Source: Halothiobacillus diazotrophicus
GTDB taxonomy: Bacteria; Pseudomonadota; Gammaproteobacteria; Halothiobacillales; Halothiobacillaceae
Assembly: GCF_001663815.1 (NCBI RefSeq)
Contig: NZ_CP016027.1
Span: forward strand, 868,001 to 932,000
Direction of reading: 5' to 3'
Length of the DNA: 64,000 nucleotides
Shown here: piece after piece, positions 22,688 through 54,233 of the stretch
How positions within the stretch are numbered: the first letter of the stretch is position 1
Layout: every line of letters starts with the position of its first letter
Program-made: the position numbers and the translations under genes
The notes under the pieces: generated by a model
Told to the model about the DNA's origin: nothing
Seen by the model: the letters and a program-made list of their open reading frames with translations, nothing else
Database searches by the model: none

Positions 22688-23065
22688 ATGGTCTATTTGT
22701 TGAATGCCCCGGTTCTCACCGCCTACGGCACCTACCAGTTTCTGGGACCCATTTCCTCCTTTGAAGCCCGTAAACGTCTGGATGGTCAAGTTGTGTCGTC
22801 AGCTATTGGTCATGAAGGAACCGCCAGTTTGCTGAGCAAAATTCTAGAGCGATCTGTTCAAATGAAACGCATCAGTGTTCAACTTCACCCGGGGGATAGC
22901 GCACTGGTATTTCGTCTGCTCGAACGACTGCCCGAGGGGGTCATATTAAGTACCGAGGAACTCGAAACCATCCCCTATGAGCTCGGATGGCTGCAACTGA
23001 TCTCTCAGGGGAATCGGTCGCCCCATAATAATTTTGAAGATATGCCCAGGAGGGGTTTGAAATGA
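22688..23065 (+). CDS. crn2: DUF1874 family ring nuclease (Crn2 / AcrIII-1-like)
   Basis: 125 residues. Opens MVYLLNAPVLTAYGTYQF and contains VSSAIGHEGTASLLSKIL, ISVQLHPGDSALVFRLLERL and ETIPYELGWL, the DUF1874 signature. Viral AcrIII-1 and bacterial Crn2 of this fold degrade cyclic tetra-adenylate. The catalytic histidine is His42 (IGHEGT), with Arg76 and Glu79 in FRLLER spaced as in the viral enzyme. The overlap with the next gene (ATGA at 23062-23065) places it in one transcript with two CARF proteins, so its role is presumably to switch off type III CRISPR signalling. The C-terminal ~18 residues are an extension. Confidence 0.88.
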   Translation: MVYLLNAPVLTAYGTYQFLGPISSFEARKRLDGQVVSSAIGHEGTASLLSKILERSVQMKRISVQLHPGDSALVFRLLERLPEGVILSTEELETIPYELGWLQLISQGNRSPHNNFEDMPRRGLK

Positions 23066-24189
23066 ACGACATTCATATCAAGAAACGCATTCTGCTCTGC
23101 GTAACGGGCATGTCCCCCCAGGTAATGACGGAAACCCTGTATGCGCTGGCAGTAAACCCGGAGGCGGGTCAAGGAGCCTGGATACCCAACGAGGTACACA
23201 TCATCACGACCGCGAGTGGCGCAGATCAGGCCCGCCTGAATCTGCTATCGCAGGACACGGGCTGGTTTAAGAAACTCTGCGATGATTACAGCCTACCGCC
23301 CATCGCTTTCGGTTCGTCGCACATCCACTGCATCACGGACGAGGCGGGCCAGGTCCTAGATGACATCCGCACACCCGCCGACAACGAGGCGGCGGCCAAC
23401 AGCATTGCCGAACTCGTGCGGGATCTCACCCATGACCCGAACAGCGCACTACATGTCTCCCTCGCCGGTGGAAGAAAGACCATGGGCTATTACACCGGCT
23501 ATGCCCTATCCCTGTACGGACGGCCGCAGGACCAGCTCTCGCACATTCTCGTGAGTGCTCCCTACGAGAGCCACCCGGAGTTCTACTACCCGACGCCCTA
23601 CCCCCGGATCATCCAGAGCCGTGAACCCAAACCCCGTGCGTTCAACTGCGCCGACGCCACGATCCAACTGGCTCATATCCCCTTCGTCCGGTTGCGTGAA
23701 GGCATGCCGCATCGCCTGCTGGACGGGAAGGCCAACTTCACCGAAACGGTCAAGCTGGCCAATCTCGCCCATGAGCCAGCCACCCTCCGAATCAACCAGT
23801 CCCGGGAGGCCCGGGGCATACGCGTCAATGGCATTCCCGTCCCACTCACCGACACCCCCTTCGCCCTCCTGTACTGGCTGGCAAGGCGGGCGAACAGCGA
23901 GAACCCGGAAGTCGACTGGATAGAACATGCCGAGTTCCTGGAGCACGTCACCAAGCTGTACGGGAAGGACAGCCACATTTACGAGGAAGTCGAGCGTGCG
24001 CTCAGATCCTGCCGGGGCGACGAAGAACAGATCAAGAAATACTTCCAACCCATCAAGTCGCGCATGAACACCATTCTCAAGGAGGAACTCGGCGCCACGC
24101 TCGCGGCGCGATGCCAAAGTCCCAAATCCAGTCGAGGGGGTGGAAATCGGCTCCCGGAAGATCTGACGATCATTTTCGACAACAACTGA
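23062..24189 (+). CDS. CARF-domain protein, NE0113/TIGR02584 family (CRISPR ring nuclease/Csm6-annotated)
   Basis: 375 residues. N-terminal CARF domain with LLCVTGMSPQVMTETLYALA (11-30), EVHIITTASG (44-53) and SLAGGRKTMGYYTGYALSLY (133-152), the hallmark motif of this family. The C-terminal part (~250-375) is helical and basic and looks like a winged helix (TPFALLYWLA, then VERALRSCRG and KSRMNTILKEELG). No HEPN or PD-DExK nuclease motif is visible. Proteins of this family accompany type III systems and are annotated as Csm6 or ring nuclease. Binding of cyclic oligoadenylate is expected from the CARF fold; effector or degrading activity is unproven. Confidence 0.85.
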   Translation: MNDIHIKKRILLCVTGMSPQVMTETLYALAVNPEAGQGAWIPNEVHIITTASGADQARLNLLSQDTGWFKKLCDDYSLPPIAFGSSHIHCITDEAGQVLDDIRTPADNEAAANSIAELVRDLTHDPNSALHVSLAGGRKTMGYYTGYALSLYGRPQDQLSHILVSAPYESHPEFYYPTPYPRIIQSREPKPRAFNCADATIQLAHIPFVRLREGMPHRLLDGKANFTETVKLANLAHEPATLRINQSREARGIRVNGIPVPLTDTPFALLYWLARRANSENPEVDWIEHAEFLEHVTKLYGKDSHIYEEVERALRSCRGDEEQIKKYFQPIKSRMNTILKEELGATLAARCQSPKSSRGGGNRLPEDLTIIFDNN

Positions 24190-24204
24190 CGGGAGCAATC
24201 CGAA

Positions 24205-25425
24205 GTGCCCACAACATTACTGACGCTGCTCGGCAAAGGTCGGGACAACCCCCAAACCGGCTACCGGGATGCCACCTATGATTTTCCGGATGGGCAGGCG
24301 CGCAAGACGCCCTACTTCGGGCTGGCCCTCGCGGACTATCTGGGCCCCGAGCACGTCGTCATCCTCGGCACCGCCGGCAGCATGTGGGGCGCCCTGCTTG
24401 AACACCACACCGCCCAGGATGCCGATGAGCACCTGCGCCTTGAACTCATGGAAGCCGAGGCAGAAGGCCGGGTCACCCAGACATTGCTGGATCAGGTTGC
24501 CCCATTGTTCCGAGCGGCACTGGGCCATCAGATAAACCCCCGCCTGGTACCTGCGGGCAGCAGCCCCGAAGAGCAGATCGAGATTCTCAGCACCATCGCC
24601 GAGCAACTGGGGAAACAGCAGCACAGCATCCATTTCGATCTCACCCACGGCTTTCGCCATCTCGGCATGATCGGCTTTCTTTCCGCCTTCATGATCGAGC
24701 GCCTGCGCCAACAGATACAGGTCGAAGGGCTCTGGTACGGCGCGCTGGACATGACCCGGAACGGCATCACGCCGGTGCTTCGCCTGGATGGACTCAACGC
24801 CGTGCAGCAGTGGGTGAGTGCGCTGGACAAATTTGACGTTAGCGGCGATTACGGCGTGTTTACCCCGTTGCTACAGGCCGATGGCCTCCCCGAAGGGGCG
24901 GCTCAGTGCCTGATCAAGGCAGCCCATTTTGAGCGCATCAGCAATATTTCCAATGCCGCGAGCCAACTTCGCACGGTCATCCAGGCCCTCAAGGAGCCCC
25001 TTGGCGGCGCTAGCTCGCTTTTTCAGGAAACCCTGCACAAGCGACTGTCCTGGGCAAGCAAGGATAACCTCGCCGAACAACAACGCCTGCTTGCCCAACG
25101 AGCGCTGGACCGGGGGGACGCCCTGCGCGCCGCCATCCTGGGACTAGAGGCACTAATCACCCACCTGTGCCTGGAACAAAACTACGATCCCCTGAATTAT
25201 CAGGACCGCGAAAACATCGGTGCCGAGTTTCAGGGGCAAATCCGGGCCGGTGAGCATCCGCAATGGCTGAAAAAAGCCTACTGGACCCTGAATGATCTGC
25301 GTAACTCCATGGCACATGGCACCCGGCCGAAACATCCCGACAACCAGAAACTCATGCAGAATCCCGAACGCTTGATCAGTGGATTGCAAAGCATTCTCAG
25401 CACCCTGACCAACCACATGCGCTGA
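24205..25425 (+). CDS. csx1: CARF-HEPN ribonuclease, Csx1/TIGR02221-like
   Basis: 406 residues from GTG 24205 (GGGAG upstream). N-terminal CARF: TLLGKGRDNPQTGYRDATYD, HVVILGTAGSMWGALLE and the ligand-contact motif HFDLTHGFRHLGMIGFLSAF (~143-162). The C-terminal HEPN domain carries the catalytic R-X4-H motif in DLRNSMAHGTRPK (Arg366, His371). When cyclic oligoadenylate binds the CARF dimer the HEPN sites cut single-stranded RNA non-specifically. This is the only evident effector RNase of the module. It lies 15 bp after the NE0113-family gene, in one operon with crn2. Confidence 0.9.
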   Translation: MPTTLLTLLGKGRDNPQTGYRDATYDFPDGQARKTPYFGLALADYLGPEHVVILGTAGSMWGALLEHHTAQDADEHLRLELMEAEAEGRVTQTLLDQVAPLFRAALGHQINPRLVPAGSSPEEQIEILSTIAEQLGKQQHSIHFDLTHGFRHLGMIGFLSAFMIERLRQQIQVEGLWYGALDMTRNGITPVLRLDGLNAVQQWVSALDKFDVSGDYGVFTPLLQADGLPEGAAQCLIKAAHFERISNISNAASQLRTVIQALKEPLGGASSLFQETLHKRLSWASKDNLAEQQRLLAQRALDRGDALRAAILGLEALITHLCLEQNYDPLNYQDRENIGAEFQGQIRAGEHPQWLKKAYWTLNDLRNSMAHGTRPKHPDNQKLMQNPERLISGLQSILSTLTNHMR

Positions 25426-28267: not shown

Positions 28268-28871
28268 GTCTTAATCCCTTTAAGCAGGGAGGGTCGGTTC
28301 GGACATTCGAATCAATGGCGAGTGGTACAATGCTTCTGGTCTTAATCCCTTTAAGCAGGGAGGGTCGGTTCGGACCCAATTCATCGGCGCCAAAGAGGCA
28401 TGGGGATGTCTTAATCCCTTTAAGCAGGGAGGGTCGGTTCGGACGCGCAGCGCGCCGACGAGGGCCGATAGAATGACGTCTCAATCCCTTTAAGCAGGGA
28501 GGGTCGGTTCGGACCGATCGATGTTCGCGGAGCAAGCCTGACATGCCGTGTCTTAATCCCTTTAAGCAGGGAGGGTCGGTTCGGACTGTAGCGGTTCAAC
28601 CGTCCCAACAGGACACAACCGTCTTAATCCCTTTAAGCAGGGAGGGTCGGTTCGGACAGAGACCATTCCGGTCAATGGTTCGGTTGAAAAGGTCTTAATC
28701 CCTTTAAGCAGGGAGGGTCGGTTCGGACGGATTCCTGTTTAACAACCGTCCATTTAGGACATGTCTTAATCCCTTTAAGCAGGGAGGGTCGGTTCGGACC
28801 GAGACAGGAGATACGAACATGAGCAGCGTCATGTGTCTTAATCCCTTTAAGCAGGGAGGGTCGGTTCGGAC
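28268..28871 (-). CRISPR. CRISPR array 1: 9 repeats, 8 spacers
   Basis: 37-bp repeat; plus-strand form begins GTCTTAATCCCTTTAAGCAG and ends GGAGGGTCGGTTCGGAC. Repeats start at 28268, 28339, 28408, 28478 (one T to C change), 28550, 28621, 28692, 28763 and 28835; spacers are 32-35 bp and all different. Transcription is inferred on the minus strand because the conserved leader lies at the right end (28872 on) and the minus-strand repeat ends in GGGATTAAGAC, giving an 8-nt ATTAAGAC handle as usual for type III/Cas6 crRNAs. The newest spacers are therefore at the right end. Confidence 0.97.
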
Positions 28872-29040
28872 TGCTGTCATATTTCCAAATGATTTCGAAT
28901 CAATGGCTTGGCGCGGATTTTTTCCGCACCAAAATGAGGCAAAAAAGTTAGCTTTTTTGAGCCGTCGTTCTTGCTGGATTTTGAAAGATTCCGAACCGGT
29001 TGCGCATCCGAACCGTCCCCTAACTCTACCCGCCGCCCTG
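28872..29040 (-). promoter_or_regulatory. CRISPR leader of array 1
   Basis: About 165 bp starting TGCTGTCATATTTCCAAATG directly after the last repeat, nearly identical to the sequence after array 2 (35484 on) and clearly related to the one beside array 3. It includes GCGCGGATTTTTTCCGCACC (a short inverted repeat) and AAAATGAGGCAAAAAAGTTA. Conservation next to three arrays marks it as the leader that holds the crRNA promoter and adaptation signals. Confidence 0.85.
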
Positions 29041-29185
29041 CCCCTCGGCAAGCGGTTCGTTCCCGGCCCGATAGACCGATCGGGGTAACCCGCCCCTTGC
29101 TCGCCAGCGTCTCGCCAATCGCCGCCCCGCTTGCGGCCCAACGTCCCGCACGCTCCTGACGGTTCGCCCCAGCCGCAACGGGCAC

Positions 29186-29329
29186 TCACGTCATCAATCA
29201 CGTCATCAATCACGTCATCAATCACGTCATCAATCACGTCATCAATCACGTCATCAATCACGTCATCAATCACGTCATCAATCACGCCATCAATCACGCC
29301 ATCAATCACGCCATCAATCACGCCATCAA
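29186..29329. repeat. 12-bp tandem repeat (minisatellite), 12 units
   Basis: Eight perfect units of TCACGTCATCAA followed by four units of TCACGCCATCAA and a partial unit. It sits between the leader of array 1 and the start of the envelope operon. No gene is supported in 29041-29534; frames through the repeat give Ser-Ile-Thr-Ser or Val-Ile-Asp-Asp repeats, which are unlikely to be real protein. Possibly a repeated protein-binding site or a slippage-prone spacer. Confidence 0.9.
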
Positions 29330-29534
29330 TCACGCCGGACCGGCTCGGTGGGCCAACCGGGCTTGCAAGCTTGCCCCACGGGATCCCCCGGGCGCATCCG
29401 GGAACAATGCCTTTCATCAGGAACGCGGCCGGCGCTTCCGCTTCGCCGGAACCATGCCGGCCAGGGCAATGGATCGGTCGATATTCACCCGCCCCGCCAC
29501 GGACCCGCCAATACACGAAAGGTAGTACACCACC

Positions 29535-29861
29535 ATGCACAGTTCACGAATTGACAGGCACACGACCAACCCGCTCCCACACGCCCCGGTGTTCCGTGCG
29601 CTGCCGGTCCTGCTGGTCACCCTGGCCCTGGGCGGCTGTGCCACGCCCGAGGGATACCGGCCCCACCCGGGATTCCGCTGGCAGCCGGTGGGCATCAACG
29701 CCGAGGGCTGCACCCTCTACACCAAGGTCGCCACCCGCCCCGGCACGGTGGTGGATGCCGCCTTGTGGGTCCGCACGCCCGACGGGGCCCATGTGCTCGA
29801 CCCGACTGCCTGCCACGGGGCAACCGGGGAGCGCCCGAACAACGGCCGACACGACCAGTAA
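29535..29861 (+). CDS. Small lipoprotein, first gene of the inter-array operon
   Basis: 108 residues. Hydrophobic signal (ALPVLLVTLALGGC) with lipobox LGGC and Cys35 as predicted lipidation site. The mature part is about 74 residues (TPEGYRPHPGFRWQPVGINA ... HVLDPTACHGATG) with no recognised domain. 30 bp before the S8 protease gene and in the same direction. Probably a periplasmic or outer-membrane-anchored partner of the products downstream (inference from position). Confidence 0.65.
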   Translation: MHSSRIDRHTTNPLPHAPVFRALPVLLVTLALGGCATPEGYRPHPGFRWQPVGINAEGCTLYTKVATRPGTVVDAALWVRTPDGAHVLDPTACHGATGERPNNGRHDQ

Positions 29862-29891
29862 CCACCGACACACCGACCAGGAGTCCCGACA

Positions 29892-31391
29892 ATGAACGCG
29901 AAGAATCTGCTGACCCTTGCCCTCCTTGCCACGACCGCCGCCACCCTCGCCGGCTGCGGTGGTGGTTCCTCCACGCCGCCGGACACCGGGAGCTATGTCC
30001 CCAATCCGGCACCGACTCCGGCGCCGACCTACCCGACCAACAGCGGGCGGGTGACGGTCACAAGCGATTATGCCGGTGCGCCGGCTCAAAGCGTGACCGT
30101 GGCCGTTCTGGACTCCGGCATCAACAGCCAGCACCAGGAATTCACCGACAACGGCGGCAAGAACGGCGTCGGTGGCGCGATTGTCAGCGGCGGGATCAAC
30201 ACGGTCAACGCTTATGACAATGCCTATCCGACACTGCCCCAGACCAGCGGCAATCTGGACACGACCAACTACCAGTGGAATTCCAGCCAGTACAGCAACG
30301 AGTCCTACCACGGCAACTTCGTCGCCTCGATCATCGCCGGGGCACATACCGGCTATTCCGGGGATGCCAGCCTGTATATCGAGAAAATCACCGGCTACGG
30401 CACGGCAAGCGCCAATGTGATCGACTTTGGCTTCTCGGACGCCGCCAACAACGGGGCTCAGTTCGCAAACCTCTCGTTTGGGTACGACCCGATCAGCGAA
30501 TATCAGCAGACAGCGAACTACGAAAATTCCGTCAACGGGTATCAAGGAACCGTCCGCAATGCGACCGATGCCGACTGGGTTTCGTGGCAGAACACGATCA
30601 GCCATGGCCTCGGCATGGTGGTGAGCGCGGGGAACAATTCCTTGAACTTTTCGACCTCTCACGCCACGGCGGCTGGCTGGAATGTCAACAATCCGCTGTA
30701 CAAGCAAGTCCTGATCGTTGGCGCTTTGTCCTCGGACAACAGCACCCTGGCCTCCTACTCGAACTACGCCGGGGATGATCCGAACGTCCAGGCTCGCTTC
30801 ATCACGGCAGTCGGCACCAACACCGGTGCCGACCCGAGCACCAACACAAAGTATGGGCAGTTCATGGGGACCTCCTCGGCGGCCCCCATCGTCACCGCCG
30901 CAGCCGCCACGCTGAAGTCCTACTGGTCGTTCATGACCCCGGCCCAGGTAGAACAGCGTTTGCTGGACACCGCCGACAAGAACTTCAACAGCCTGTGGAA
31001 CCAGAACAACTGCGGCACCTCTGGCGCCCTGAACTGCGGCAGCTACTACTACGGTTCGGGGCGGCTTGATCTGAACGCGGCCATGCAGCCGGCTGGCGTG
31101 GTCGTGACCACGACCGCCGCCTCGGTGCCGACCAGCGCCTCCGCACAGTCTGCCCCGGCAGCCGCAACCGGTATATCCGTCCCGGCCTCTCTGGCCCCGG
31201 TTGCCGCCTCGGTCAAGGCCGCCTCGGTGGGTGTCCAGGGATTCGACGCCATCGGTCGCAACTACACCCTGAACCTCGCGCCCTCGGTGAGCACCTTTGC
31301 CGACCCGACGCAGACGGTGAGCTACAAGATGACCGGCTTCGCGGCGAAGTTCATGCAGTCGGGTCAACCGTTCAAGACGCTGGACCAGTAA
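29892..31391 (+). CDS. Subtilisin-like (S8) serine protease lipoprotein
   Basis: 499 residues, AGGAG eight bases before ATG. Lipobox LAGC (Cys22), then a Gly/Ser/Pro linker. Catalytic triad visible: Asp74 in VAVLDSGINSQH, His140 in ESYHGNFVASIIAG, Ser328 in MGTSSAAPIVTAAAATL; oxyanion Asn in VSAGNNS. The C-terminal ~130 residues are Ala/Ser-rich and include FDAIGRNYTLNLAPSVSTFA, similar to the segment that links the protease to the beta-barrel in S8 autotransporters. Here the chain stops, and a barrel-like sequence is encoded separately 62 bp downstream. Envelope-anchored protease; substrate unknown. Confidence 0.88.
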   Translation: MNAKNLLTLALLATTAATLAGCGGGSSTPPDTGSYVPNPAPTPAPTYPTNSGRVTVTSDYAGAPAQSVTVAVLDSGINSQHQEFTDNGGKNGVGGAIVSGGINTVNAYDNAYPTLPQTSGNLDTTNYQWNSSQYSNESYHGNFVASIIAGAHTGYSGDASLYIEKITGYGTASANVIDFGFSDAANNGAQFANLSFGYDPISEYQQTANYENSVNGYQGTVRNATDADWVSWQNTISHGLGMVVSAGNNSLNFSTSHATAAGWNVNNPLYKQVLIVGALSSDNSTLASYSNYAGDDPNVQARFITAVGTNTGADPSTNTKYGQFMGTSSAAPIVTAAAATLKSYWSFMTPAQVEQRLLDTADKNFNSLWNQNNCGTSGALNCGSYYYGSGRLDLNAAMQPAGVVVTTTAASVPTSASAQSAPAAATGISVPASLAPVAASVKAASVGVQGFDAIGRNYTLNLAPSVSTFADPTQTVSYKMTGFAAKFMQSGQPFKTLDQ

Positions 31392-31453
31392 GCGCCCAGC
31401 GCGCAGTAGCCCGGCTCTGCCGGGCAGGATGGGCGAAACAGAGGACAAGAGAC

Positions 31454-32374
31454 ATGGCAGCCATCATTCACCAGATGATCGACTACAACAGCGCAGGACA
31501 ACCCGCGATGGCCTATGTCGAGGCCGTGGCCGCCCGCCCCGAAGTGGGCAGCAGCTTCGCCGCTTTCCACTTCACCAAGGGCCGCGCCCTGCCGGGCGAG
31601 CCGGGGACCGACCTGCCCGTGGCCCTGGTGACGTTCAACGGGGCCGGCCCACTGGCCGGGATCGTTCAGAACGCCGATGGGGTGTCCTCGACGATGCGCA
31701 GCGGCCCGGTGTTCGTCAAGAATACGGCCTGGTCCGGCAACGCCGGGCGCGCCGACCTGACCGGCAACGACACGGTGATGCAGTTCGGTTCGGCCATTGG
31801 CGTGGATTTCACCGACACCGTGCAAGTTCGGGCCGAGCAGGTCCGGGCCACGGAAAGCCGCGGCTTTCTCGGTGCCATCGGCACCGGGGGGTTCAGCACC
31901 TCTGGCGGGGCCACCCTGCAACTCACCGGGCTGTCTCTGCGCCTGCACGGCACCACCCGTTTCGGTCGTCTGGGGCTGTTCGCCACCTACCGGCAGGGCA
32001 CGGCCCGGTCGGCTTACGCCAACTCGCTGCTCTCGCGGATCGACGCGAAGCTCACGCAGGCAGCCAGCGGGGTCTGGTGGCAGGACGGTCGCAACGCCGC
32101 CGCACTCGTCGTCAGCCAACCGCTGGGCATCACCGGGGGCGACATGAGCCTGAAGCTCGCCTCCGGCCGCACGGACGCCGGGGCGGTCACGTACAACACC
32201 CCGACCGTGAACCTGACCGGCATCCGTCAGGTGAACGTCGAAGCCGGGTTCACCCACTACATTAACAATCAGGTGAAAGTGGGCCTGAACCTGATCTACG
32301 TGCAGCACCCGAGCAACCAGCCTGGGTTGAATCACGACGCCGGGGCCATGCTGCTGATGGGGGCAAGACTGTGA
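31454..32374 (+). CDS. Autotransporter beta-barrel-like protein split from the S8 protease
   Basis: 306 residues, AGAGGACAAGAGAC before ATG. Glycine- and aromatic-rich alternating pattern with AALVVSQPLGITGGDMSLKL, VEAGFTHYINNQVKVGLNLI and a C-terminal HDAGAMLLMGARL ending hydrophobic/aromatic. This is the usual sequence style of the C-terminal barrel of S8-family autotransporters (VSQPLRVESG..., ...HDAAVGLRYRL). No signal peptide is visible, which is odd for an outer-membrane barrel. Family assignment rests on motif memory. The stop overlaps the next start (GTGA). Confidence 0.55.
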   Translation: MAAIIHQMIDYNSAGQPAMAYVEAVAARPEVGSSFAAFHFTKGRALPGEPGTDLPVALVTFNGAGPLAGIVQNADGVSSTMRSGPVFVKNTAWSGNAGRADLTGNDTVMQFGSAIGVDFTDTVQVRAEQVRATESRGFLGAIGTGGFSTSGGATLQLTGLSLRLHGTTRFGRLGLFATYRQGTARSAYANSLLSRIDAKLTQAASGVWWQDGRNAAALVVSQPLGITGGDMSLKLASGRTDAGAVTYNTPTVNLTGIRQVNVEAGFTHYINNQVKVGLNLIYVQHPSNQPGLNHDAGAMLLMGARL

Positions 32375-32985
32375 ATGACCTCTCCGCCATCTGCTACGCC
32401 AACCTCGTGGGGCTCATGCTGATCCCGCTGGCTTGGTGGCAATTCGCCCACGCCCGCGACAAGCGTGCGTTCCTGGCGCTCAATGTCGGCACCTGTCTGG
32501 TCGTGGCAGCTTCCTTCGCCCTGGTCGGGCAACAGACCGCGGCAGCGGTTTCCCTGGCCGCCGCCACCACCAGCCTGGGGCAGTATGTGTTGGCCGAACG
32601 CTCGCCCTTCCTTCGCGCAGGGGTGGCGCTGGCCTCCATTTCCGGTGCGCTGACACTTGCCTTCCCGCACGATCTGTTCGCCTGGCTGGCTGCCTTCGGC
32701 TATGCCTGGGTGCGGGTGGCGGAAGCCAGTCGAGAGTCCCTGATGCGCACCATGTACGTCCTCTCCCCGGCTCTCTGGGCGCTGCTCTCGCTGCATGCGC
32801 AAAGCTACACCCTGGCCACGGTAGATCTGGTCGGGCTCTTTCTGTCCATCCGCTGGGTGGTCACCCGCCTGGAGCGCCTGGAGCGCCGGTTAGACACACA
32901 GGCCGGCGAACCGCACGCCCCGCATCCGACCCGCACCAAGGCGGATGCCCCAGCCGTACCGCCAACCCGCCGGCAGACGGCATGA
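32371..32985 (+). CDS. Multi-pass inner-membrane protein (YgjV-like)
   Basis: 204 residues from GTG 32371, coupled to the preceding gene by a GTGA overlap. About six hydrophobic segments (including YANLVGLMLIPLAWWQFAHA, NVGTCLVVAASFALVG, ALASISGALTLAF, MYVLSPALWALLSLHA, TVDLVGLFLSIRWVV) then a hydrophilic, Pro-rich 40-residue C-tail. Size and spacing resemble the Imp-YgjV family of unknown function; this match is tentative. Confidence 0.6.
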   Translation: MNDLSAICYANLVGLMLIPLAWWQFAHARDKRAFLALNVGTCLVVAASFALVGQQTAAAVSLAAATTSLGQYVLAERSPFLRAGVALASISGALTLAFPHDLFAWLAAFGYAWVRVAEASRESLMRTMYVLSPALWALLSLHAQSYTLATVDLVGLFLSIRWVVTRLERLERRLDTQAGEPHAPHPTRTKADAPAVPPTRRQTA

Positions 32986-33001
32986 CTCCGGAGACCCGCC
33001 C

Positions 33002-34093
33002 ATGATCATCCCCAGGGACCGAACCTATTTCCACCACCAGTTGTTGATGGGCCGCCTGCGCCTGCTCAGAAATCAGCGACAATTCCTCTGGCTCGGGACC
33101 CTTACCCTGATCTGGCTTGCGGCCGTCGCCGTCTATTCCCGTTTCCAGTCTGCCCCGCCCCCCGGAACGCTCGAGTTCGTCAGCCTCGTTCTGTTTCTGA
33201 CGCTCGTCGACATGTATCTCTATGGGCAATTGCACACACAGTGGCGTCGCCGCAGCGAACTCCGGCAACGGATTGACGAAATTCGGGCACTCGTTCACCC
33301 GGTGGGCGATGCCGATACACCGATCCGGGATAGGGGATCCTGGTGTCGGGCTGGTGATCGGACAAACCGTAGCGGGACGACCAAACCGTTCGGCTGGCCG
33401 CGGAAATCCACCGGGCACTCGGTGACGAAGGCGAAGCTGCTCGCCCTGCGCGCGCGACTCCCGGTATTCGGCCTGGCCAGCGCGCTCGCCCCGGACACCC
33501 TGAAACCGGTGCCGTCCACGTACCTGGATGCCGAAGGCCGAAACTGGACCCGCCTCGATCACGAACCGACCGGCCCGTTCGGCCCCCTGCTGGCCGCCCT
33601 GGAAATGCGCGACATGGCGCTGTACGCGGAAGACCGGCGCCGGGCAGGCCGGCACCTTGGCGCGGCGATACGGGGGGTGCCGCTGGCCGTGCTGCGCGCC
33701 CTGGGTCAGCCGGATCGTCTGGTGAACGCCCTGGTCGGTGCGCCGGGCATCGAGGGAAGCTGGACGTTCAGCACCGAGGCAGGCAAGACCTGCCGGATTC
33801 CCGTCGGGCGTATCGGCGGCGCGCACCTGGTGTTCGTCCGCCATGTACAGGAAACTGACACCCGGGGCGCCTCGCGCCTGATTATTGAACAGGTGATCAC
33901 GGATCGTCGGCTGGTCATCCTGGATGTAGCGCGCTTCGAGGTGTTCACCCGCGCCACATCGCTGCCCCTGTATTTTCGCGATACCCGGGTGGCGATTCCG
34001 CCGGATGCCCCCGTCCTGATACCCCAGTCGCAACCCGATCGCCCCATCGTCGCACTGGGGGAGGCTGCCCTGGCGTACGAGATCGAATTCTGA
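33002..34093 (+). CDS. Membrane-anchored protein of unknown function
   Basis: 363 residues from ATG 33002 (GGAG eight bases upstream). Two transmembrane helices near the N-terminus (LWLGTLTLIWLAAVAVYSRF; LEFVSLVLFLTLVDMYLYGQ) followed by a ~290-residue soluble domain. Residues ~105-145 (ADTPIRDRGSWCRAGDRTNR and onward) are unusually polar and basic and might reflect compensated frameshifts. The rest (LLAALEMRDMALYAEDRRRA, IIEQVITDRRLVILDVARFE) looks normal. No family recognised. Part of the inter-array operon. Confidence 0.6.
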   Translation: MIIPRDRTYFHHQLLMGRLRLLRNQRQFLWLGTLTLIWLAAVAVYSRFQSAPPPGTLEFVSLVLFLTLVDMYLYGQLHTQWRRRSELRQRIDEIRALVHPVGDADTPIRDRGSWCRAGDRTNRSGTTKPFGWPRKSTGHSVTKAKLLALRARLPVFGLASALAPDTLKPVPSTYLDAEGRNWTRLDHEPTGPFGPLLAALEMRDMALYAEDRRRAGRHLGAAIRGVPLAVLRALGQPDRLVNALVGAPGIEGSWTFSTEAGKTCRIPVGRIGGAHLVFVRHVQETDTRGASRLIIEQVITDRRLVILDVARFEVFTRATSLPLYFRDTRVAIPPDAPVLIPQSQPDRPIVALGEAALAYEIEF

Positions 34094-34209
34094 ACGGTTT
34101 CGCCGGGCCACGCCCCGCGCGGACGCCTGCGATCCGGCGACGGTTCTGATACCTTCACGCCTGGCGATGTCGTGGACAATGCGCCCCGCCTGCAAACCCG
34201 GAGACAACG

Positions 34210-34539
34210 ATGGAACACAAGATCCCGACCTACCTCGTCATCACGATACTTTTGCTCCTCTTGGCTTGGTTGACCGCCTGGGCGATCCCGCGCATCCCCC
34301 GCTTGCCCCGGGCACGATGGCTACGAATGATGCAGGCCATGAGCAATCGGATCATCTTCGCCGGGTTGGCCGTCATGCTGGCCCCGTGGCTGTTCGGGGT
34401 GCTTCGGACGACCCCGTTCAATCTGCCCACGGCACTCGGCGGCATCGGTCTGATCGTGCTTGGCCTGCTGCTTTCCGCCTGGACATCACGGCAGACCTCC
34501 GGACATCAGCCCGAAGGAGCAGGAAAGGAATGCGACTGA
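34210..34539 (+). CDS. Small two- or three-TM membrane protein
   Basis: 109 residues, GGAGACAACG before ATG. Hydrophobic segments at ~8-28 (YLVITILLLLLAWLTAWAIP), ~49-66 and ~75-92, with a basic loop RIPRLPRARWLRMM. Its stop overlaps a short ATG-initiated frame. No recognised family; co-oriented with the other envelope genes. Confidence 0.6.
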   Translation: MEHKIPTYLVITILLLLLAWLTAWAIPRIPRLPRARWLRMMQAMSNRIIFAGLAVMLAPWLFGVLRTTPFNLPTALGGIGLIVLGLLLSAWTSRQTSGHQPEGAGKECD

Positions 34540-34552
34540 TGCACCGACTCTC

Positions 34553-34687
34553 ATGCCACGGGTAGGCTGGCTGCCCAGGGTTGTTGCCCTGGCTGCTGCC
34601 CTGGCTGCTGCCCTGGCTTGCTGGCCCGTCGACGAGGACGAGAGGGTGGCAGAGACCCTGGAACGGAAAAAAGGCATAACGCGATGA
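34553..34687 (+). CDS. 44-residue exported or membrane peptide
   Basis: Begins MPRVGWLPRVVALAAALAAA and continues LACWPVDEDERVAETLERKK. A signal-like hydrophobic stretch ends ALAC, an imperfect lipobox, followed by a charged helix. The DNA in the hydrophobic part is a 12-bp tandem repeat (CTGGCTGCTGCC). Its TGA overlaps the ATG of the next gene (ATGA at 34684), indicating coupling, which supports it being translated. Confidence 0.4.
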   Translation: MPRVGWLPRVVALAAALAAALACWPVDEDERVAETLERKKGITR

Positions 34688-34953
34688 GCGGATTGATCCT
34701 GGAAGTGCTGATTCTGCTTGTCCTGGTCGTCGCATCGGCCCTGGGGCTGAGTTACGTCGTGACGCTCAATGAAAAGCGGGTAAAGCAACAGCTCGATGAA
34801 CAGCGCCGGGCGCGCATTCAGGCGGAGTCTGGCCCGGCCAATGACGCAGTCGCTCCGAACCCTCGGCCTCATGGTTCACGGCCTCATGGTTCACGGCTTC
34901 ATGGCTCACGGCTTCATGACCGGGGGCCTCATGACCCGGGGCATCAAGGCTGA
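34684..34953 (+). CDS. Small membrane protein with PHGSR repeat tail
   Basis: 89 residues. N-terminal transmembrane helix (LILEVLILLVLVVASALGLS), a charged helix (NEKRVKQQLDEQRRARIQAE) and a C-terminal tail made of imperfect five-residue repeats (RPHGS, RLHGS, RLHDR, GPHDP) encoded by a 15-bp tandem repeat at 34861-34935. His-rich repeats could bind metal or membranes. Last gene before array 2. Confidence 0.5.
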   Translation: MSGLILEVLILLVLVVASALGLSYVVTLNEKRVKQQLDEQRRARIQAESGPANDAVAPNPRPHGSRPHGSRLHGSRLHDRGPHDPGHQG

Positions 34954-35093
34954 ACATCGAATACCAGCGAGCAACGGACGGCGGATAAAATCCCCGGACT
35001 TCAGGAGCATGATCATGGGCCGGCAAAAGGCCCCGGTCAGTCACTTGCGGCCTGAACAGTCCGACCCATCAATCCGGACAGGTACTCGGCAAC

Positions 35094-35483
35094 GACTAAA
35101 TCCCTTTAAGCAGGGAGGGTCGGTTCGGACAGCTCCGGCTGCGCCAGCGTTTCACCTGTCCAGTCTTAATCCCTTTAAGCAGGGAGGGTCGGTTCGGACA
35201 CACCTCACAAACCTCTTCGGTAACGTACAGTATGTCTTAATCCCTTTAAGCAGGGAGGGTCGGTTCGGACCGACTGCGAAGGGGGATCTGTGAGCCTGCC
35301 TTACGTCTTAATCCCTTTAAGCAGGGAGGGTCGGTTCGGACAAGTGCCGGGCGCGCATATCGAACAAACAGAGAAGTCTTAATCCCTTTAAGCAGGGAGG
35401 GTCGGTTCGGACCCGCAACGGCTGTCAAGTACAGCGCAAACGAACTGTCTTAATCCCTTTAAGCAGGGAGGGTCGGTTCGGAC
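35094..35483 (-). CRISPR. CRISPR array 2: 6 repeats, 5 spacers
   Basis: Same 37-bp repeat as array 1. Repeats at 35094 (degenerate, two changes near its left end), 35163, 35234, 35305, 35376 and 35447. The degenerate copy is at the leader-distal end, as expected for an old terminal repeat. The leader begins at 35484, so transcription is again on the minus strand, toward the envelope operon. Spacers 32-34 bp, none shared with array 1. Confidence 0.97.
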
Positions 35484-35690
35484 TGCTGTCATATTTCCAA
35501 ACGATTTCGAATCAATGGCTTGGCGCGGATTTTTTCCGCACCAAAATGAGGCGAAAAAGTTAGCTTTTTTGAGCCGTCGTTCTTGCTGGATTTTGAAAGA
35601 TTCCGAACCGGTTGCGCATCCGAACCGTCCCCTACTGTACCTGCCGCCCTGCCCTACCGCAAGCGGGTGGCCGCCGATACCGAGAACGGT
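35484..35690 (-). promoter_or_regulatory. CRISPR leader of array 2
   Basis: TGCTGTCATATTTCCAAACG onward is the same ~160 bp found beside array 1, with only a few base differences up to CCGAACCGTCCCCTA. After ~35650 it runs into a short hairpin (GATACCGAGAACGGTATC) that can end the convergent or upstream transcript, then into the 3' end of cmr6. Confidence 0.85.
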
Positions 35691-35699
35691 ATCGGGGCG

Positions 35700-36911
35700 T
35701 TATTCCTCCCCTCGAAGCACCCGGATGGCTTCCTGAATCTGCTGCTTGCGTTCCTTTTTCCCCGGCGTGCCCCATTGCCGGGTCAGGGTCTCGGCCAGCA
35801 GGTCGCCGGCCGCCCGGCGGCTGCGCGGATCCGTCCACGCCAGCACGCGCTCCATGAAGGCCAGCCGCTCGCGCTCGAAATTGCCGCCTGGCTGATAGGG
35901 ACGCTGGCGTGCTTCCGCGAACCCTGCACGGAAGGCCTCGACCTCGGTCAGGTCCTGCTCATGCGCCTTGTCTTCCGGGGAAAGCGTCGCCTTGCGTGCC
36001 GTTTCGGCCCGTTCACTGGCCCTCCGGGTCCGCTCCGCCTCCAGACGCGCCTCGGACTCGACATCGCGGTACAGTGCGCCATACCCGGTGGCGGTCTTGC
36101 CGCCGGCGCCGGACTCCGTCAGGGCACGGGTCAGGGCATCGGCGACGTCTGCCAGATCGATGCCGGTCGCTGCCCCGGTCGCGCCCGGGCGCAAACAGAA
36201 CCCGAACTGCAGTTCGATATCCCGGGCAGCCAGAAAGGGCACGGGCACGGGCTGGTGCCAGTCGGCCGGCACCGCATCGGGTCCGGGGACCTTGTCGCCC
36301 CGGGCATACCATTGCCCCATGTGGGGGGTCATGACATCGACACTGAGGGTGACGGGCCTGACAGGCAGCGCGTCGAAGAACACCAGCGCCCCGCGCTGGG
36401 TGGCTTCCTGCGCATCAGGGACCTTGTTGGGGTCCTTGTCGGCACTGCCGAACCACTGGCGCAACAGACCGCGAAGTTCCGCCCCTTCCGCATCCAGATG
36501 CGTTTCAATGTAGCTGCGCAGCAGGCCCTTGACCGCCGCGCCGCTGAGGTAAGGCACACCAAGCGTGGGATGCCAGGCAAAGCCGTTCTCCACCGGATGG
36601 GGATTGCCCATGCCGGTCACGAGATGCCCGCCCGAGTGGAAGCGCAGCACCTGCCCTCCCAGGCCACCGACCAGTTCCGCCAGGGCGGCATTGTGCCGCT
36701 CCAGCGCCGGGGCACTGCCGGCCTCCCTGCCATGGAACTCGCTCAGAAGCCAGTGGGTGTTACCCTGTTTGTCCTGATTGCCCCGAGGCTTGAGTACGGC
36801 CCAGGTGGCGGAATCGTACTGGTCGTAAAAGCGCTCGAACCAAAGACCTCGATGCGCCTCGTCCGGGCAGGACCCGGGCAGGTCGCCCTGACCGTAAATC
36901 GGCGCAGTCAT
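35700..36911 (-). CDS. cmr6: Type III-B RAMP protein Cmr6
   Basis: 403 residues. Core RAMP region contains WHPTLGVPYLSGAAVKGLLR SYIE (split), RGALVFFDALPVRPVTLSVD and MTPHMGQWYARGDKVPGPDA, standard for Cmr6, which caps the belly end of the Cmr backbone. TGYGAL marks the RAMP glycine-rich loop. The C-terminal ~110 residues are charged and helical (ERTRRASERAETARKA). Last gene of the operon; start overlaps the cmr5 stop (ATGA). Confidence 0.93.
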   Translation of the reverse strand: MTAPIYGQGDLPGSCPDEAHRGLWFERFYDQYDSATWAVLKPRGNQDKQGNTHWLLSEFHGREAGSAPALERHNAALAELVGGLGGQVLRFHSGGHLVTGMGNPHPVENGFAWHPTLGVPYLSGAAVKGLLRSYIETHLDAEGAELRGLLRQWFGSADKDPNKVPDAQEATQRGALVFFDALPVRPVTLSVDVMTPHMGQWYARGDKVPGPDAVPADWHQPVPVPFLAARDIELQFGFCLRPGATGAATGIDLADVADALTRALTESGAGGKTATGYGALYRDVESEARLEAERTRRASERAETARKATLSPEDKAHEQDLTEVEAFRAGFAEARQRPYQPGGNFERERLAFMERVLAWTDPRSRRAAGDLLAETLTRQWGTPGKKERKQQIQEAIRVLRGEE

Positions 36912-37306
36912 GCACCACCTCCGGGTTGGGTCGTCTCCCCTTCATTCATGAAAGCCTTGGCGAATTTCTTGACCCAGTCCATCAGGGCCAGGGCCTCTGC
37001 CTGGGCCAGCCGGTAGGCATGCATGTCTCTGGAGATGACGCCATCGAGAAGATCCTTACAGCCGGCGTAAGGCTGGCCGGCCATACAGAGCCACTCTGAA
37101 AGCAGATCGTAAAGCTCACCATGCGGGTCGCCTTTGGCCCCTTTGGACTTGAAGAAGGCAGCCGCCTGCCCCAATCCATTCATGTGAATCATCGCAGGCA
37201 GACTGGCCGCGTAACTCTTGTATTCCTTCTGGCTGACCTTGCGCGACAGTGCCTGCTGTACCTGCGCCAGCGCGTACTTGGCGCGTTGCTGCTGAATGGT
37301 CTGCAT
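36908..37306 (-). CDS. cmr5: Type III-B small subunit Cmr5
   Basis: 132 residues, all-helical. MQTIQQQRAKYALAQVQQAL and YAASLPAMIHMNGLGQAAAF followed by FKSKG are the typical Cmr5 core; YDLLSEWLC and MDWVKKFAKAFM complete it. Small subunits line the target RNA channel. Sits 3 bp after cmr4 and overlaps cmr6. Confidence 0.95.
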   Translation of the reverse strand: MQTIQQQRAKYALAQVQQALSRKVSQKEYKSYAASLPAMIHMNGLGQAAAFFKSKGAKGDPHGELYDLLSEWLCMAGQPYAGCKDLLDGVISRDMHAYRLAQAEALALMDWVKKFAKAFMNEGETTQPGGGA

Positions 37307-37309
37307 CGC

Positions 37310-38188
37310 TTATTCACTCCCCTGGGTCTTGACGGCACACCAGCCCATGCCGACGGTCTCGTTGCCACCCATCTGGAGCCAGGGCTTTTCGTCGAACAGG
37401 CCGATGACGGCACCCAGAATATCCTGCGCACTCATGGCAGCCTCCCCGGCACGCGCCTTGTTCGCGCTCAGGCCCGCATAGAGCAAGGTTTCCGGCGGCA
37501 ACGTCTCCTCGTACCACAGCGCTCCGCCCCGCACGGTGCCGGTGGCGGAATCAATCGCGATATGGGCATTGACCGGCGTGGCGTGTTGCGCCAGGTGGGC
37601 AAACATGTCGTTGCTCACGACCACCAGTTGCCGTTCCAGGTCCTCCCTGATCTGGTCGCGGCTCATCAGGCCAGCCAGGGTATCGATCAGGCCATCAAGG
37701 TCCCGGGCCGTGGCACTGAATCGATACTCTTCGAGAAACAGCGCGGTATCCGGGGTCTGCTGCGGCACAATCGCGGCATCCTGCTGGATATCGGGCAGAT
37801 CGAAAGCGGGCACGGTGACGCCGAATCGGGCCGCATCGCTGCGATAACGCTGGAGAGCCGCCGGGCAGGTCACCCACTTGAACTGGGATGTCAGCGATCG
37901 GATGGGCAGGAGCAACAGGCGGGCATCGCTTACCAGCAAGGCCCCGGCATGATCGCTGGCGTGGTTGGTGTCGGGACCGAACACGAACCGGACGCTGTCG
38001 TTATCCTCACCGTATTGCGACTCGGCACGGGCGCGCAGCGCGCCCTTGAGGGAGGAACCGAAAACGCAGGGCCATCCGTTGTGGCCCTCCCGCTGGATCG
38101 GCAGATCAATGACGCCGGTGGTTGCGCCGATCCCGGCATGCAGGGAAGTTTGCGCGAACAGCCCGAAAATGACGTTTGCCTGTTGCAT
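37310..38188 (-). CDS. cmr4: Type III-B backbone RAMP protein Cmr4
   Basis: 292 residues from ATG 38188 (AAGGAAAACCTC upstream). GLFAQTSLHAGIGATTGVID and GWPCVFGSSLKGALRARAES are the Cmr4/Cas7 signature. Cmr4 subunits polymerise along the crRNA. The catalytic loop Asp that cuts target RNA every six nucleotides is expected near residue 27 (VID). The C-terminal QMGGNETVGMGWC glycine loop is intact. Confidence 0.95.
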   Translation of the reverse strand: MQQANVIFGLFAQTSLHAGIGATTGVIDLPIQREGHNGWPCVFGSSLKGALRARAESQYGEDNDSVRFVFGPDTNHASDHAGALLVSDARLLLLPIRSLTSQFKWVTCPAALQRYRSDAARFGVTVPAFDLPDIQQDAAIVPQQTPDTALFLEEYRFSATARDLDGLIDTLAGLMSRDQIREDLERQLVVVSNDMFAHLAQHATPVNAHIAIDSATGTVRGGALWYEETLPPETLLYAGLSANKARAGEAAMSAQDILGAVIGLFDEKPWLQMGGNETVGMGWCAVKTQGSE

Positions 38189-38229
38189 GAGGTTTTCCTT
38201 GAATCGTGAATGGGTTTTCGTGTTCGGGG

Positions 38230-39543
38230 TTACTGGTCCTGCCAAGGGCCAACCGCGAGGTGCCCGTAGCCGTATTCGGTTTGTACACCAATTTGTCGGT
38301 CGTGCAGGGCCTCACAGGCGGCCTGGACATCGCCTTCGACCGTGCAGAAAAACACGCTCCCCGCCGGGACAAAGCTCGTGACCGGGCGAGGAAGCTGATT
38401 GGTCATGTCCCAGCCTCCGCTTCTCAGGGCCTTGCCCGTGACGGCACCGTGGAGCGTCAGCGCGATGCCGTTCAGGGTGCCGGTCCAGACGGTAGGCGTG
38501 CCTGCTTCCCCCGATTCCTGCCGGGCAAAGCCCAGCCAGGCGCCCCCCGGCATGAGCAGCGGCGTGAGCAGGTACAGGGCGATCCCCTGGCCGGAGCCTG
38601 CCCCGGGCGCGGGGAGATCGACCGCTTTCTGCAGGACGCTCAGACGTGCGGCACGGCCCTCCCCGCCCAGACGGACCAGCGACTCGTTGGGCAGGCTGTC
38701 CGGCAACCCCGAAGCATCCACCTCGATACTCAGTGCCGGTTGGGGCCGGATATGGCGGGTCTGGTAGAGCATGCCTTCGATAACGGTACGCCTGCGGTTA
38801 TCCCGGGCAATGCCGACGCGGGACTCTCGGAAAAAAAGTTGGTCGGCGGTCCGGAGCTGCGCCGGGTCCGGGAGGTGCCCCGCCAGCACCCGGGCCAGTC
38901 CCTCGCGGGTCAGCCAGGTGTCTTCCATCGGTCTGGCCCCTCGGGCGTGCCTGTCCTCGGGTAGTGCCGGCAGGCGAACCCGTCTGCCCAGGTCACACCA
39001 GACCGGCGACTTGTCCAGGTGCAACGGGTAGATGCGTGCCGCCTCACCGGGCAGGTGCAGGGGCGCCGGCTTCCTGAGCAGGTGCAGGGGCGCCGGATAC
39101 AGGCGCTCGCCATTCAGGGCCAGCCAGACACCCCGGAAACTCAGGCTTCCGAGTTCCTCGTCGTAGCCGATGATCTGACGCAGGGAATGAGCGGGCTCCG
39201 CCCGATATGCCTGCCAATCCACCGCTGCCGATTCCCCGATCAGCGTCCGCACGGCCCCCGCAAGCGTGCGCATCGGTGGCGGAAAGACGCTCTGCAGTTC
39301 ACCCATGGCTTCCATCGGGCGGGATTCCCGGAAGAACAGCGTGTCTGCGGCATCGAAGGCCAGCGTGGCCCGCCCCGCCTTCAGCCCTAACTGGACAGGC
39401 GATGGCGGCCTGACCGCTTCGCCCGATGCGGCGCGGGCCATCCCGGTCCGAGGTTCCGGATTCTGTACCGCATTGTGCGCACCGGTTCCCGCAGGCTTTT
39501 TTTTGTCGTAGCGGATCGGTTTGTGCTTTTTATGCCCGGCCAT
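38230..39543 (-). CDS. cmr3: Type III-B Cmr3 with a basic N-terminal extension
   Basis: 437 residues. The Cmr3/Cas5-like core begins around residue 55 (AFDAADTLFFRESRPMEAMG), with MRTLAGAVRTLIGE and the final QTEYGYGHLAVG. Cmr3 holds the crRNA 5' handle next to Cmr2. Upstream of the core is a ~55-residue Lys/Arg/His-rich, probably disordered extension (MAGHKKHKPIRYDKKKPAGT) not usual in the family. Its ATG overlaps the cmr2 stop (TAATG), supporting this start. The extension may add RNA or DNA contacts (inference). Confidence 0.92.
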   Translation of the reverse strand: MAGHKKHKPIRYDKKKPAGTGAHNAVQNPEPRTGMARAASGEAVRPPSPVQLGLKAGRATLAFDAADTLFFRESRPMEAMGELQSVFPPPMRTLAGAVRTLIGESAAVDWQAYRAEPAHSLRQIIGYDEELGSLSFRGVWLALNGERLYPAPLHLLRKPAPLHLPGEAARIYPLHLDKSPVWCDLGRRVRLPALPEDRHARGARPMEDTWLTREGLARVLAGHLPDPAQLRTADQLFFRESRVGIARDNRRRTVIEGMLYQTRHIRPQPALSIEVDASGLPDSLPNESLVRLGGEGRAARLSVLQKAVDLPAPGAGSGQGIALYLLTPLLMPGGAWLGFARQESGEAGTPTVWTGTLNGIALTLHGAVTGKALRSGGWDMTNQLPRPVTSFVPAGSVFFCTVEGDVQAACEALHDRQIGVQTEYGYGHLAVGPWQDQ

Positions 39544-41450
39544 TACGCCACTCCCTTATGCGCCAAGAAACGAACGAGCAAGGCGGCATCCGCCTCGCGG
39601 ACCATTCTGCCCCACCGTTCGGGTTTCGGTTCGTCCGGATCCCGGATGACCGGAGTACATTGTTCCAGCAGTGGTTGGATGAACTGGCGGGCCTCCCCAC
39701 GGGTGGTGAGGCGGGATTTGCCCGAGTTCAGATACTCCATCGCCAGCACATCAGTGAGCACGGACCGGGCGTCGTCATCGCCGCCCTCGGTGGGCGCGAG
39801 GTCGGCAAGGCGCTCGACGATCTTGTAAATGAACTTGCCGGAAAACTGCGTGGATTCCTCACCCTCCAGGCGCAACTGCCCGGCAATTTCCTCGAGATAC
39901 GTCTTGTTGCTCTCCGGATTGAGGGCAATGCTCCAGGGCTGGGCCCATTCGATTTTCGAGCCCCCCGGTTTCCAGACACGAATGGCGAGGGCATCGCGCC
40001 CCCGCCCATCCTTGGCGAGCTCGTCCAGCAGGGGGTGGGCATCGCCCAGCACCTTGCCCAGCGGCATCCGAATGTGGGCAAACTCGATACCCCCCGACAG
40101 CGTGGTCGGTATGCCGGTGTCCCTGAAACAACCCAGATAGTGCGAGCGCAGCTCGGTCGCACACGGAATGGCGTCTTCCAGCGGCAATACCGCCAGTACG
40201 TCATCGCCTCCGGCATAAATCAGAAAGCCATTCCAGCGGTCCACGATATCCGGTGCCTGCCGTGTGAATTTTCGCAATCCATCCGCAATAGCTCGCTGCT
40301 TGCCGATATCGCTCATGTGAGACCCGAGCGAATCGCCATCCATCAACAGGATGGCGTAGAACGGCGAAACGGGATCGAGGCCGGCGCTTACTTCAACCCG
40401 TTTCAGCGCCTTCTGGGCCTTCTCGGCCAGAGCCCGGTCGGGAAAGAGATTCCGGTTTTCGAGCTGGCTGCTGTAGAACACATTGCCATCCAGAGACAGC
40501 AGGTGCTTGAAGTCACCGGCCCGGGGCTGCGCCCGCAAGCAACGAATAGTGGTCAGCCATTCCCCGTACTCGCCGCCGGTCAGTTCAGCGGCCGCCGCAT
40601 GGAATGCGCGCAGATCGTCGGCGTCGGCCTTTTCCAGAACATTTTTCAGCCAGGGCACGGCAGCCATGTACGCCACCGATGGGACACCGCTCGGCACCTC
40701 CCAGCCTTTCAGCTTCCAGCCCGACGGAAGCTGCGCGTCGAGGTGATGAAAATGCCGGCTGAAGCGGCGCTTCACGAAGGCAATTGCGCACAAGGCCTCG
40801 TTTTCCGCGAGATCACTGGTCATGCCGTTTTGGCCTTGCTCGCGCACGGCATCCCAGAACGCATTCATCTCCCGGCGATTGGGGGCAACCTGGCCGGAAA
40901 GCTCCTGCCAGCCTTCCATCATGGAACATTTGACGCCAGGTTCATCCGGCGGGGTGTGGGTACGCCAGTTCTTTCGTTTGTCGAGCGCCGCGCCATCCCC
41001 CTCATCGGGTGTAATGACCCAGCTCATATCCCAGAATCGCCCGATTTGACGATCCCATACCGCCCGCTGGACCGGACCGGCCACCTCGGACAGATCATGG
41101 GTCCATACGGTATCGGCCAACGCCTGCCAAGCCGCCTGCACCGCCCCGACGACCACGTCCGGATCAAAAGTCGCGGGATCGACAGCCGCCACGACCCCCT
41201 TGAACCGGTTGGGAATGCTGCCCTGCCGAGGCTGCCTGCCGGAACCCTTCCCCACCAGCCAGTTCATGTAATGGCCATCAGGCTCGGGGAAGGCCACATC
41301 GCCCCCCTGTCGACCGACCGCCTCGATGGCAACCGCCGACAACCAGGAAAGGATGAAGGAACCCGCCCAGAAATCACGGGTACGACGGGCCTGGGCCACA
41401 AAGCCCTGAACCGGCCCGAGGGTGAAGTGAAAGTAATGGGAAGTGCTCAT
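39543..41450 (-). CDS. cmr2: Type III-B large subunit Cmr2/Cas10 lacking the HD domain
   Basis: 635 residues, short for the family. It starts directly with HYFHFTLGPVQGFVAQARRT RDFWAGSFILSWLSAVAIEA (split), the region that normally follows the HD nuclease, so single-stranded DNA cleavage is not expected. The palm domain keeps LLMDGDSLGSHMSDIGKQ (~369-386) and the cyclase motif YAGGDDVLAVLP (GGDD 414-417), so cyclic oligoadenylate synthesis should be intact. This matches the presence of CARF proteins and a ring nuclease at 22.7-25.4 kb. Translation overlaps cmr1 (ATGA) and cmr3 (TAATG). Confidence 0.95.
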   Translation of the reverse strand: MSTSHYFHFTLGPVQGFVAQARRTRDFWAGSFILSWLSAVAIEAVGRQGGDVAFPEPDGHYMNWLVGKGSGRQPRQGSIPNRFKGVVAAVDPATFDPDVVVGAVQAAWQALADTVWTHDLSEVAGPVQRAVWDRQIGRFWDMSWVITPDEGDGAALDKRKNWRTHTPPDEPGVKCSMMEGWQELSGQVAPNRREMNAFWDAVREQGQNGMTSDLAENEALCAIAFVKRRFSRHFHHLDAQLPSGWKLKGWEVPSGVPSVAYMAAVPWLKNVLEKADADDLRAFHAAAAELTGGEYGEWLTTIRCLRAQPRAGDFKHLLSLDGNVFYSSQLENRNLFPDRALAEKAQKALKRVEVSAGLDPVSPFYAILLMDGDSLGSHMSDIGKQRAIADGLRKFTRQAPDIVDRWNGFLIYAGGDDVLAVLPLEDAIPCATELRSHYLGCFRDTGIPTTLSGGIEFAHIRMPLGKVLGDAHPLLDELAKDGRGRDALAIRVWKPGGSKIEWAQPWSIALNPESNKTYLEEIAGQLRLEGEESTQFSGKFIYKIVERLADLAPTEGGDDDARSVLTDVLAMEYLNSGKSRLTTRGEARQFIQPLLEQCTPVIRDPDEPKPERWGRMVREADAALLVRFLAHKGVA

Positions 41451-43738: not shown

Positions 43739-43812
43739 CGATCAATTCCATACACCCCGGACAATCCGACTCAACGGGCAGCATGTCCTTCCTCGATTCC
43801 GACCACGGCAAA

Positions 43813-48922: not shown

Positions 48923-48985
48923 TGAATCGCCACCAGATTGCTAGCCACCTTTCAGCCATCCAGAATGGTTATCAGAGAGGTACTC

Positions 48986-53914: not shown

Positions 53915-53979
53915 CTTAACTCCCTAAGAAACAGCACTTTTATTATCCAACACGCCGAAAACCAGACGCTCTATCAGGG

Positions 53980-54201: not shown

Positions 54202-54233
54202 AAAAAAATCCCGATATAAATCGGGATTTTTTT
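54202..54233. terminator. Bidirectional terminator
   Basis: AAAAAAATCCCGA-TATAAA-TCGGGATTTTTTT, a perfect palindrome with T-runs on both strands, 49 bp past the end of chemoreceptor 2. The rest of 53915-54281 shows only the promoter above and no gene. Confidence 0.9.

Follow-up and report, generated by a model that had tools for sequence, protein, structure and literature searches.

Why should an operon of envelope genes lie between two arrays of clustered regularly interspaced short palindromic repeats (CRISPR) in a type III-B locus? This arrangement is found in Halothiobacillus diazotrophicus, in a stretch of 64,000 nucleotides (i.e. the window) that corresponds to positions 868001-932000 of a single-contig, 2.91-Mb Halothiobacillus chromosome. 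The operon occupies the plus strand between arrays 1 and 2 (29535-34953) and starts with the genes for a small lipoprotein (g1), an S8 subtilase lipoprotein (g2) and a barrel-like protein (g3), followed by g4-g8 (Table 1). A preliminary description had suggested that either array-leader units had recombined around a cargo cassette or the operon was a membrane-directed accessory of the type III system. The analyses presented here indicate that the operon is probably a separate module of envelope genes within a defence island, with duplicated array-leader units on both sides and no part in CRISPR immunity.

The core genes occur away from the CRISPR locus

A paralogue of the g1-g3 module was detected in the same genome at 1.551-1.553 Mb (locus L008), 650 kb away from the window. 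Gene order was conserved and identities were 33% for the lipoprotein, 63% for the S8 protease and 53% for the barrel. This second module adjoins an M90 peptidase gene and has the gene for MkoC, of the Mokosh system, on its far side. Two further copies (L028 and L030) were found in Halothiobacillus sp. LH_M7 (G019), a draft genome of 92% completeness in which neither the 37-nt repeat of the arrays nor a match to the Cas10 of the window was detected. The module is carried by two of the ten genomes of the genus. Occurrence of the core both at a second locus of its own genome and in a genome without such a CRISPR system indicates that the operon is most likely a neighbour within the island rather than a piece of CRISPR machinery. 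The preliminary description had named two things that would together speak against a connection, i.e. an operon common in relatives and unlinked to CRISPR, and the absence of a junction or regulatory link; the first of these halves was observed for g1-g3.

Array-leader units, probably duplicated, flank the operon

The 37-nt repeat is present in 15 copies over the co-oriented arrays 1 and 2, whereas none would be expected by chance. Together, the leader-proximal repeat and the leader constitute a 189-nt direct repeat (28834-29022 and 35446-35634; spacing 6612) with 99% identity. Pairwise alignment of leaders 1 and 2 exhibited 148 identities over 150 positions and 24 over the next 30, with about 60% identity beyond that point. 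The sharing of repeat, leader and orientation by these arrays was thus as originally described, but to the two flanking arrays has to be added a third, inverted array of the same repeat, whose leader is about 88% identical to leaders 1 and 2 over about 89 nt. As leaders 1 and 2 are far closer to one another than to leader 3, a recent duplication or gene conversion is suggested. Judging from a degenerate repeat at 35094 and from the leader conserved on the right, the leader lies at the end with the higher coordinates; transcription of arrays 1 and 2 is thus directed leftwards, opposite to that of the operon. All three arrays probably serve one type III-B system, in which arrays 1 and 2 would be sister units of array and leader.

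No spacers are common to arrays 1 and 2, which probably arose by duplication, or were homogenised by gene conversion, and then gained different spacers. Phage targets were not found for any of the 15 spacers, IMG/VR contained no targets for the two leader-proximal spacers searched, and a search for self-targeting inside the window returned just matches of 11-15 nt, i.e. the chance level. In the leader-distal spacer of array 1 (28305-28338), a stretch of 14 nt (GCCATTGATTCGAA) is also present in leaders 1 and 2; this could be chance.

Direct repeats on both sides of an operon, 6.6 kb apart, could also reflect entry of the cassette by homologous recombination, with a circular or linear donor that carried a leader-array end and the operon integrating into a resident array-leader and remaining excisable. 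In favour of such an entry, the near-identity ends sharply outside the leader, and the GC content at third codon positions is slightly higher in g1-g6 (0.77-0.87) than in most cas genes (0.64-0.79). However, no integrase, transposase or terminal repeats were found at the edges of the operon, the direct repeats being the array-leaders themselves, and arrays with unshared spacers often multiply when no cargo is involved (PMC12814883). Nor was an empty site found among the other nine genus genomes searched, because the III-B locus and its repeat are absent from them. Entry by this route is accordingly considered unlikely; excision via the 189-bp direct repeats would be possible in principle. Recombination of array-leader units around a cargo cassette, as first proposed, fits the data, which do not fix the order of events. 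Duplication of array-leader units on both sides of an envelope operon unrelated to them would be the most parsimonious explanation, and the position of the operon between the arrays would then reflect shuffling within the island.

No type III sensor domain is detected in the operon

The location of the operon inside the III-B locus, together with its four to six membrane or lipoprotein genes, could be explained if the operon served the III-B system as a functional accessory directed at membranes, with g5 sensing a signal and g2, g4 and g6 damaging or remodelling the envelope of infected cells. The GGDD motif is retained in Cas10, so cyclic oligoadenylates are plausibly made, and membrane effectors of type III systems are already known (i.e. 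Cam1, Csx23 and CorA; PMC11229360). However, no CARF, SAVED or other type III domain was detected in g1-g6 with Pfam, and NCBIfam and PADLOC likewise returned none for those operon proteins that were run against them, although the soluble domain of g5, being without known relatives, might harbour a sensor of an unfamiliar kind. The S8 protease has a lipoprotein signal that would take it out of the cytoplasm. The core module occurs without the III-B system of the window, its repeat or its Cas10, and no recurrent linkage to type III loci was apparent, g1-g3 being situated at three other loci away from the III-B genes. Canonical CARF effectors are already encoded at the locus (23062-25425). The operon lies on the strand opposite to the cmr genes and to array transcription, precluding a shared transcript with cmr. 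The accessory function put forward in the preliminary description is accordingly not supported and is considered very unlikely.

The core module probably encodes a split autotransporter-like protease

Relatives of the barrel protein point to a different origin for g1-g3. In four genomes of a sister genus, a single open frame of 775-830 codons encodes first a lipoprotein signal and an S8 domain and then, at its C-terminal end, the barrel domain; a g1-related stretch is readable just upstream of the fused gene for at least two of the loci. In 12 more genomes of the class, distant homologues are likewise contained in open frames of 684-980 codons, with an S8 domain in all six that were tested. 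Since the single open frame is found in both the sister genus and distant members of the class, the fused protease-barrel form is probably ancestral and the split probably specific to Halothiobacillus.

In the split form, protease and barrel are encoded by separate open reading frames (ORFs) that are out of frame with one another, and the start codon (ATG) of the barrel gene is preceded by Shine-Dalgarno-like sequences. Neither a signal peptide nor a hydrophobic N-terminus was detected in any of the four copies of the split barrel (i.e. g3 and its three closest homologues), and the C-terminal residue is L or I as compared to F in the fused forms. The ratio of non-synonymous to synonymous substitution rates (dN/dS) between orthologous copies was 0.09 for the barrel, indicating that the split barrel is maintained under purifying selection, and 0.07 for the S8 protease. 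An AlphaFold model of g3 was all-beta, with a predicted local distance difference test score (pLDDT) of 72, and a Foldseek search with this model returned outer-membrane barrels, including the EspP autotransporter, with E-values of about 4e-4 and TM-scores of just 0.33-0.5. The Pfam autotransporter domain was not detected. The S8 assignment of g2 is supported by a Pfam match of 5.5e-29. An envelope location, originally claimed for the whole set, is consistent with the lipoprotein signals of g1 and g2, whereas the N-terminus of g3 gives no indication of export.

At each of the four loci, the reading frame of the barrel continues without a stop codon when followed back into the protease gene, and a programmed frameshift joining g2 and g3 was considered. 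Such an event would need to be +1 for three of the copies but -1 for that of the window; the Shine-Dalgarno-like sequences weaken this explanation, a slippery site was not evident, and the frameshift was not adopted as the main explanation.

We propose that g1-g3 derive from a two-gene unit, in which one gene encoded a small lipoprotein and the other an S8 protease that was lipidated and joined to an outer-membrane-barrel-like domain (NalP/SphB1-like). This protease-barrel protein would have been split in Halothiobacillus, probably once, and the module then copied or transferred to several places. The g2 protein would most likely undergo Sec export, lipidation and retention in the envelope, where it would act together with g1 to cleave proteins of the envelope or the surface. 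The signal-less g3 has most likely been kept as a partner of g2, either inside the cell or exported by another route, and g4-g6 are probably inner-membrane proteins co-transcribed with g2.

Defence genes adjoin several copies of the module

Some observations weigh against an independent module with no part in immunity. The g4-g6 genes, and the doubtful g7 and g8, are orphans or have weak matches and are missing at the other module copies; the operon is unusual and a locus-specific role is conceivable. As g4-g8 lack clear relatives, comparison permits no judgement of these genes. The G019 genome, from which two of the copies derive, is an incomplete draft. Finally, three of the four Halothiobacillus copies are situated beside a defence system, which is more than expected for an unrelated envelope gene.

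These defence neighbours are the III-B system in the window, MkoC at L008 (9393-12929; 1326 bits), which is located between the barrel and DsrE genes, and Dsr1, of SIR2 type, at L030 (2345-6154), directly downstream of the second G019 copy. At L028, which is the G019 site orthologous to L008, the barrel gene directly adjoins the DsrE gene with no insert. The S8/barrel module might therefore mark or travel with defence islands, its 3' side acting as a recurrent landing site for defence genes. The presence of MkoC at L008 versus the uninterrupted L028, and the Dsr1 gene that follows the module at L030, speak for this idea, but the pattern was recognised post hoc from four loci and an insertion signature was not found by eye at the edges of MkoC. 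Furthermore, none of ten genes neighbouring the fused genes in the sister genus was a clear defence gene, with one weak Mads2 match. A landing site is thus a doubtful explanation. Even less probable is that a split lipidated subtilase autotransporter, with a signal-less but selected barrel, is recurrently coupled to III-B, Mokosh and Dsr1 as an envelope-level defence (e.g. by processing of phage receptors).

Other genes of the operon and the surrounding island

Codon usage was assessed with a model trained on neighbouring known genes and favoured the plus-strand genes g1-g6 over the long ORFs that run antisense to them. In contrast, g8 had a score per codon of 0.03, i.e. near zero, and g7 produced no usable score. 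Both are built largely from 12- and 15-bp tandem repeats and are regarded as doubtful genes. The operon was initially given as eight genes, for which g1-g6 are supported and g7 and g8 are not; their joining by overlaps (g3/g4 and g7/g8) and short gaps, all on the plus strand, was confirmed. The g4 protein exhibited a Pfam Imp-YgjV match of 1e-4, just under the cut-off, and no match in viral contigs. The g5 protein occurred in one of 369 genomes of the class, no relatives of it were found in these genomes, in plasmids or in viral contigs, and its structure model (pLDDT 41) was too poor to use. The g3 barrel protein similarly had no matches in plasmids or viral contigs. A promoter and terminator scan for a common logic produced nothing above chance.

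Table 1. Features of the locus (positions are those of the window unless another locus is named; TM, transmembrane)
Feature	Position	Strand	Remarks
Signalling block: STIV-B116/Csx16-like, CARF5 (Cas_NE0113), Csx1 CARF-HEPN	22688-25425	+	
CRISPR array 1	28268-28871	-	9 repeats, 8 spacers; repeat read as GTCCGAACCGACCCTCCCTGCTTAAAGGGATTAAGAC
Leader 1	28872-29060	-	148/150 identical to leader 2, similarity decaying after
12-bp minisatellite	29186-29334		TCACGTCATCAA x12.4; between leader 1 and g1
g1	29535-29861	+	108 aa; small lipoprotein, lipobox LGGC
g2	29892-31391	+	499 aa; S8 subtilase lipoprotein, lipobox LAGC; triad motifs DSGI/HGN/GTSSAAP intact
g3	31454-32374	+	306 aa; barrel-like; homologue of the C-terminal domain found in fused S8 autotransporter-like proteins
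g4	32371-32985	+	204 aa; membrane protein, weak YgjV-like; overlaps g3 stop
g5	33002-34093	+	363 aa; orphan; two predicted TM helices and ~260-aa soluble domain
g6	34210-34539	+	109 aa; three hydrophobic segments
g7	34553-34687	+	44 aa; ORF out of 12-bp tandem repeat; doubtful gene
g8	34684-34953	+	89 aa; one TM segment and repeat-encoded tail; doubtful gene
CRISPR array 2	35094-35483	-	6 repeats, 5 spacers; degenerate repeat at distal (left) end
Leader 2	35484-35697	-	abuts cmr6 stop codon
cmr6-cmr5-cmr4-cmr3-cmr2-cmr1-like RAMP	35700-42526	-	type III-B effector; cmr2 is cas10, GGDD present
cas6, cas1, cas2	42561-45346	-	
CRISPR array 3	45819-45995	+	3 repeats, 2 spacers; inverted, diverged leader, beyond cas2
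Barrel gene copies	window 31454-32374; L008 8334-9245; L028 13663-14574; L030 728-1630		

The interval from an Orn/Lys/Arg decarboxylase gene (19426-21738) to hemB (51142) looks like a defence island since it contains the III-B locus, the CARF genes, a type I restriction R subunit fragment (C-terminal part, apparently truncated) and an IS3-type integrase, the last two at 47476-50130. Synteny around hemB was examined by alignment to G019, which extends on the right side only, the G019 contig ending there. Beside hemB, a 300-bp direct repeat (52278-54588; 88% identity, start-to-start spacing of 2011 bp) is consistent with a gene duplication, and one G019 stretch matches both copies. At 1000-5100 there are several other direct repeats, diverged and each about 70-300 bp long.

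Significance and comparison with known systems

With the attractive but weak case for a new CRISPR accessory system set aside, a concrete oddity is left, namely an autotransporter-like protease that is cut in two and whose conserved barrel half has no evident route out of the cytoplasm. Should the recurrent association with defence genes hold in more genomes, this would suggest that the module either provides such genes with a landing site or has a defence function at the level of the envelope.

Several arrays with the same consensus repeat are found in 19.3% of Cas loci (PMC12814883). Arrays 1 and 2 resemble these in having the same repeat and leader with unshared spacers, but differ in being separated by a 6-kb operon of unrelated genes. 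The membrane proteins of this operon are, like Cam1, Csx23 and CorA, encoded beside a type III locus, but exhibit no detected cyclic-oligoadenylate-binding domain and belong to a module that is also found unlinked to type III. Among type III proteases, CalpL Lon-SAVED and SAVED-CHAT carry SAVED sensor domains (PMC11229360); the g2 protease gene is similarly near type III genes, whereas its product is an exported lipoprotein subtilase without SAVED.

The closest likeness is to the type Va autotransporters NalP of Neisseria and SphB1 of Bordetella, both of which are lipidated (PMC9977779). The g2 protein shares with these a lipoprotein signal and an S8 domain, and the fused homologues share a C-terminal beta-barrel-like domain ending in F. 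The Halothiobacillus proteins differ in that protease and barrel-like domain are separate genes, and in that the barrel half is signal-less and ends in L or I rather than F. The one-polypeptide architecture of type Va is seen in the fused homologues outside Halothiobacillus only.

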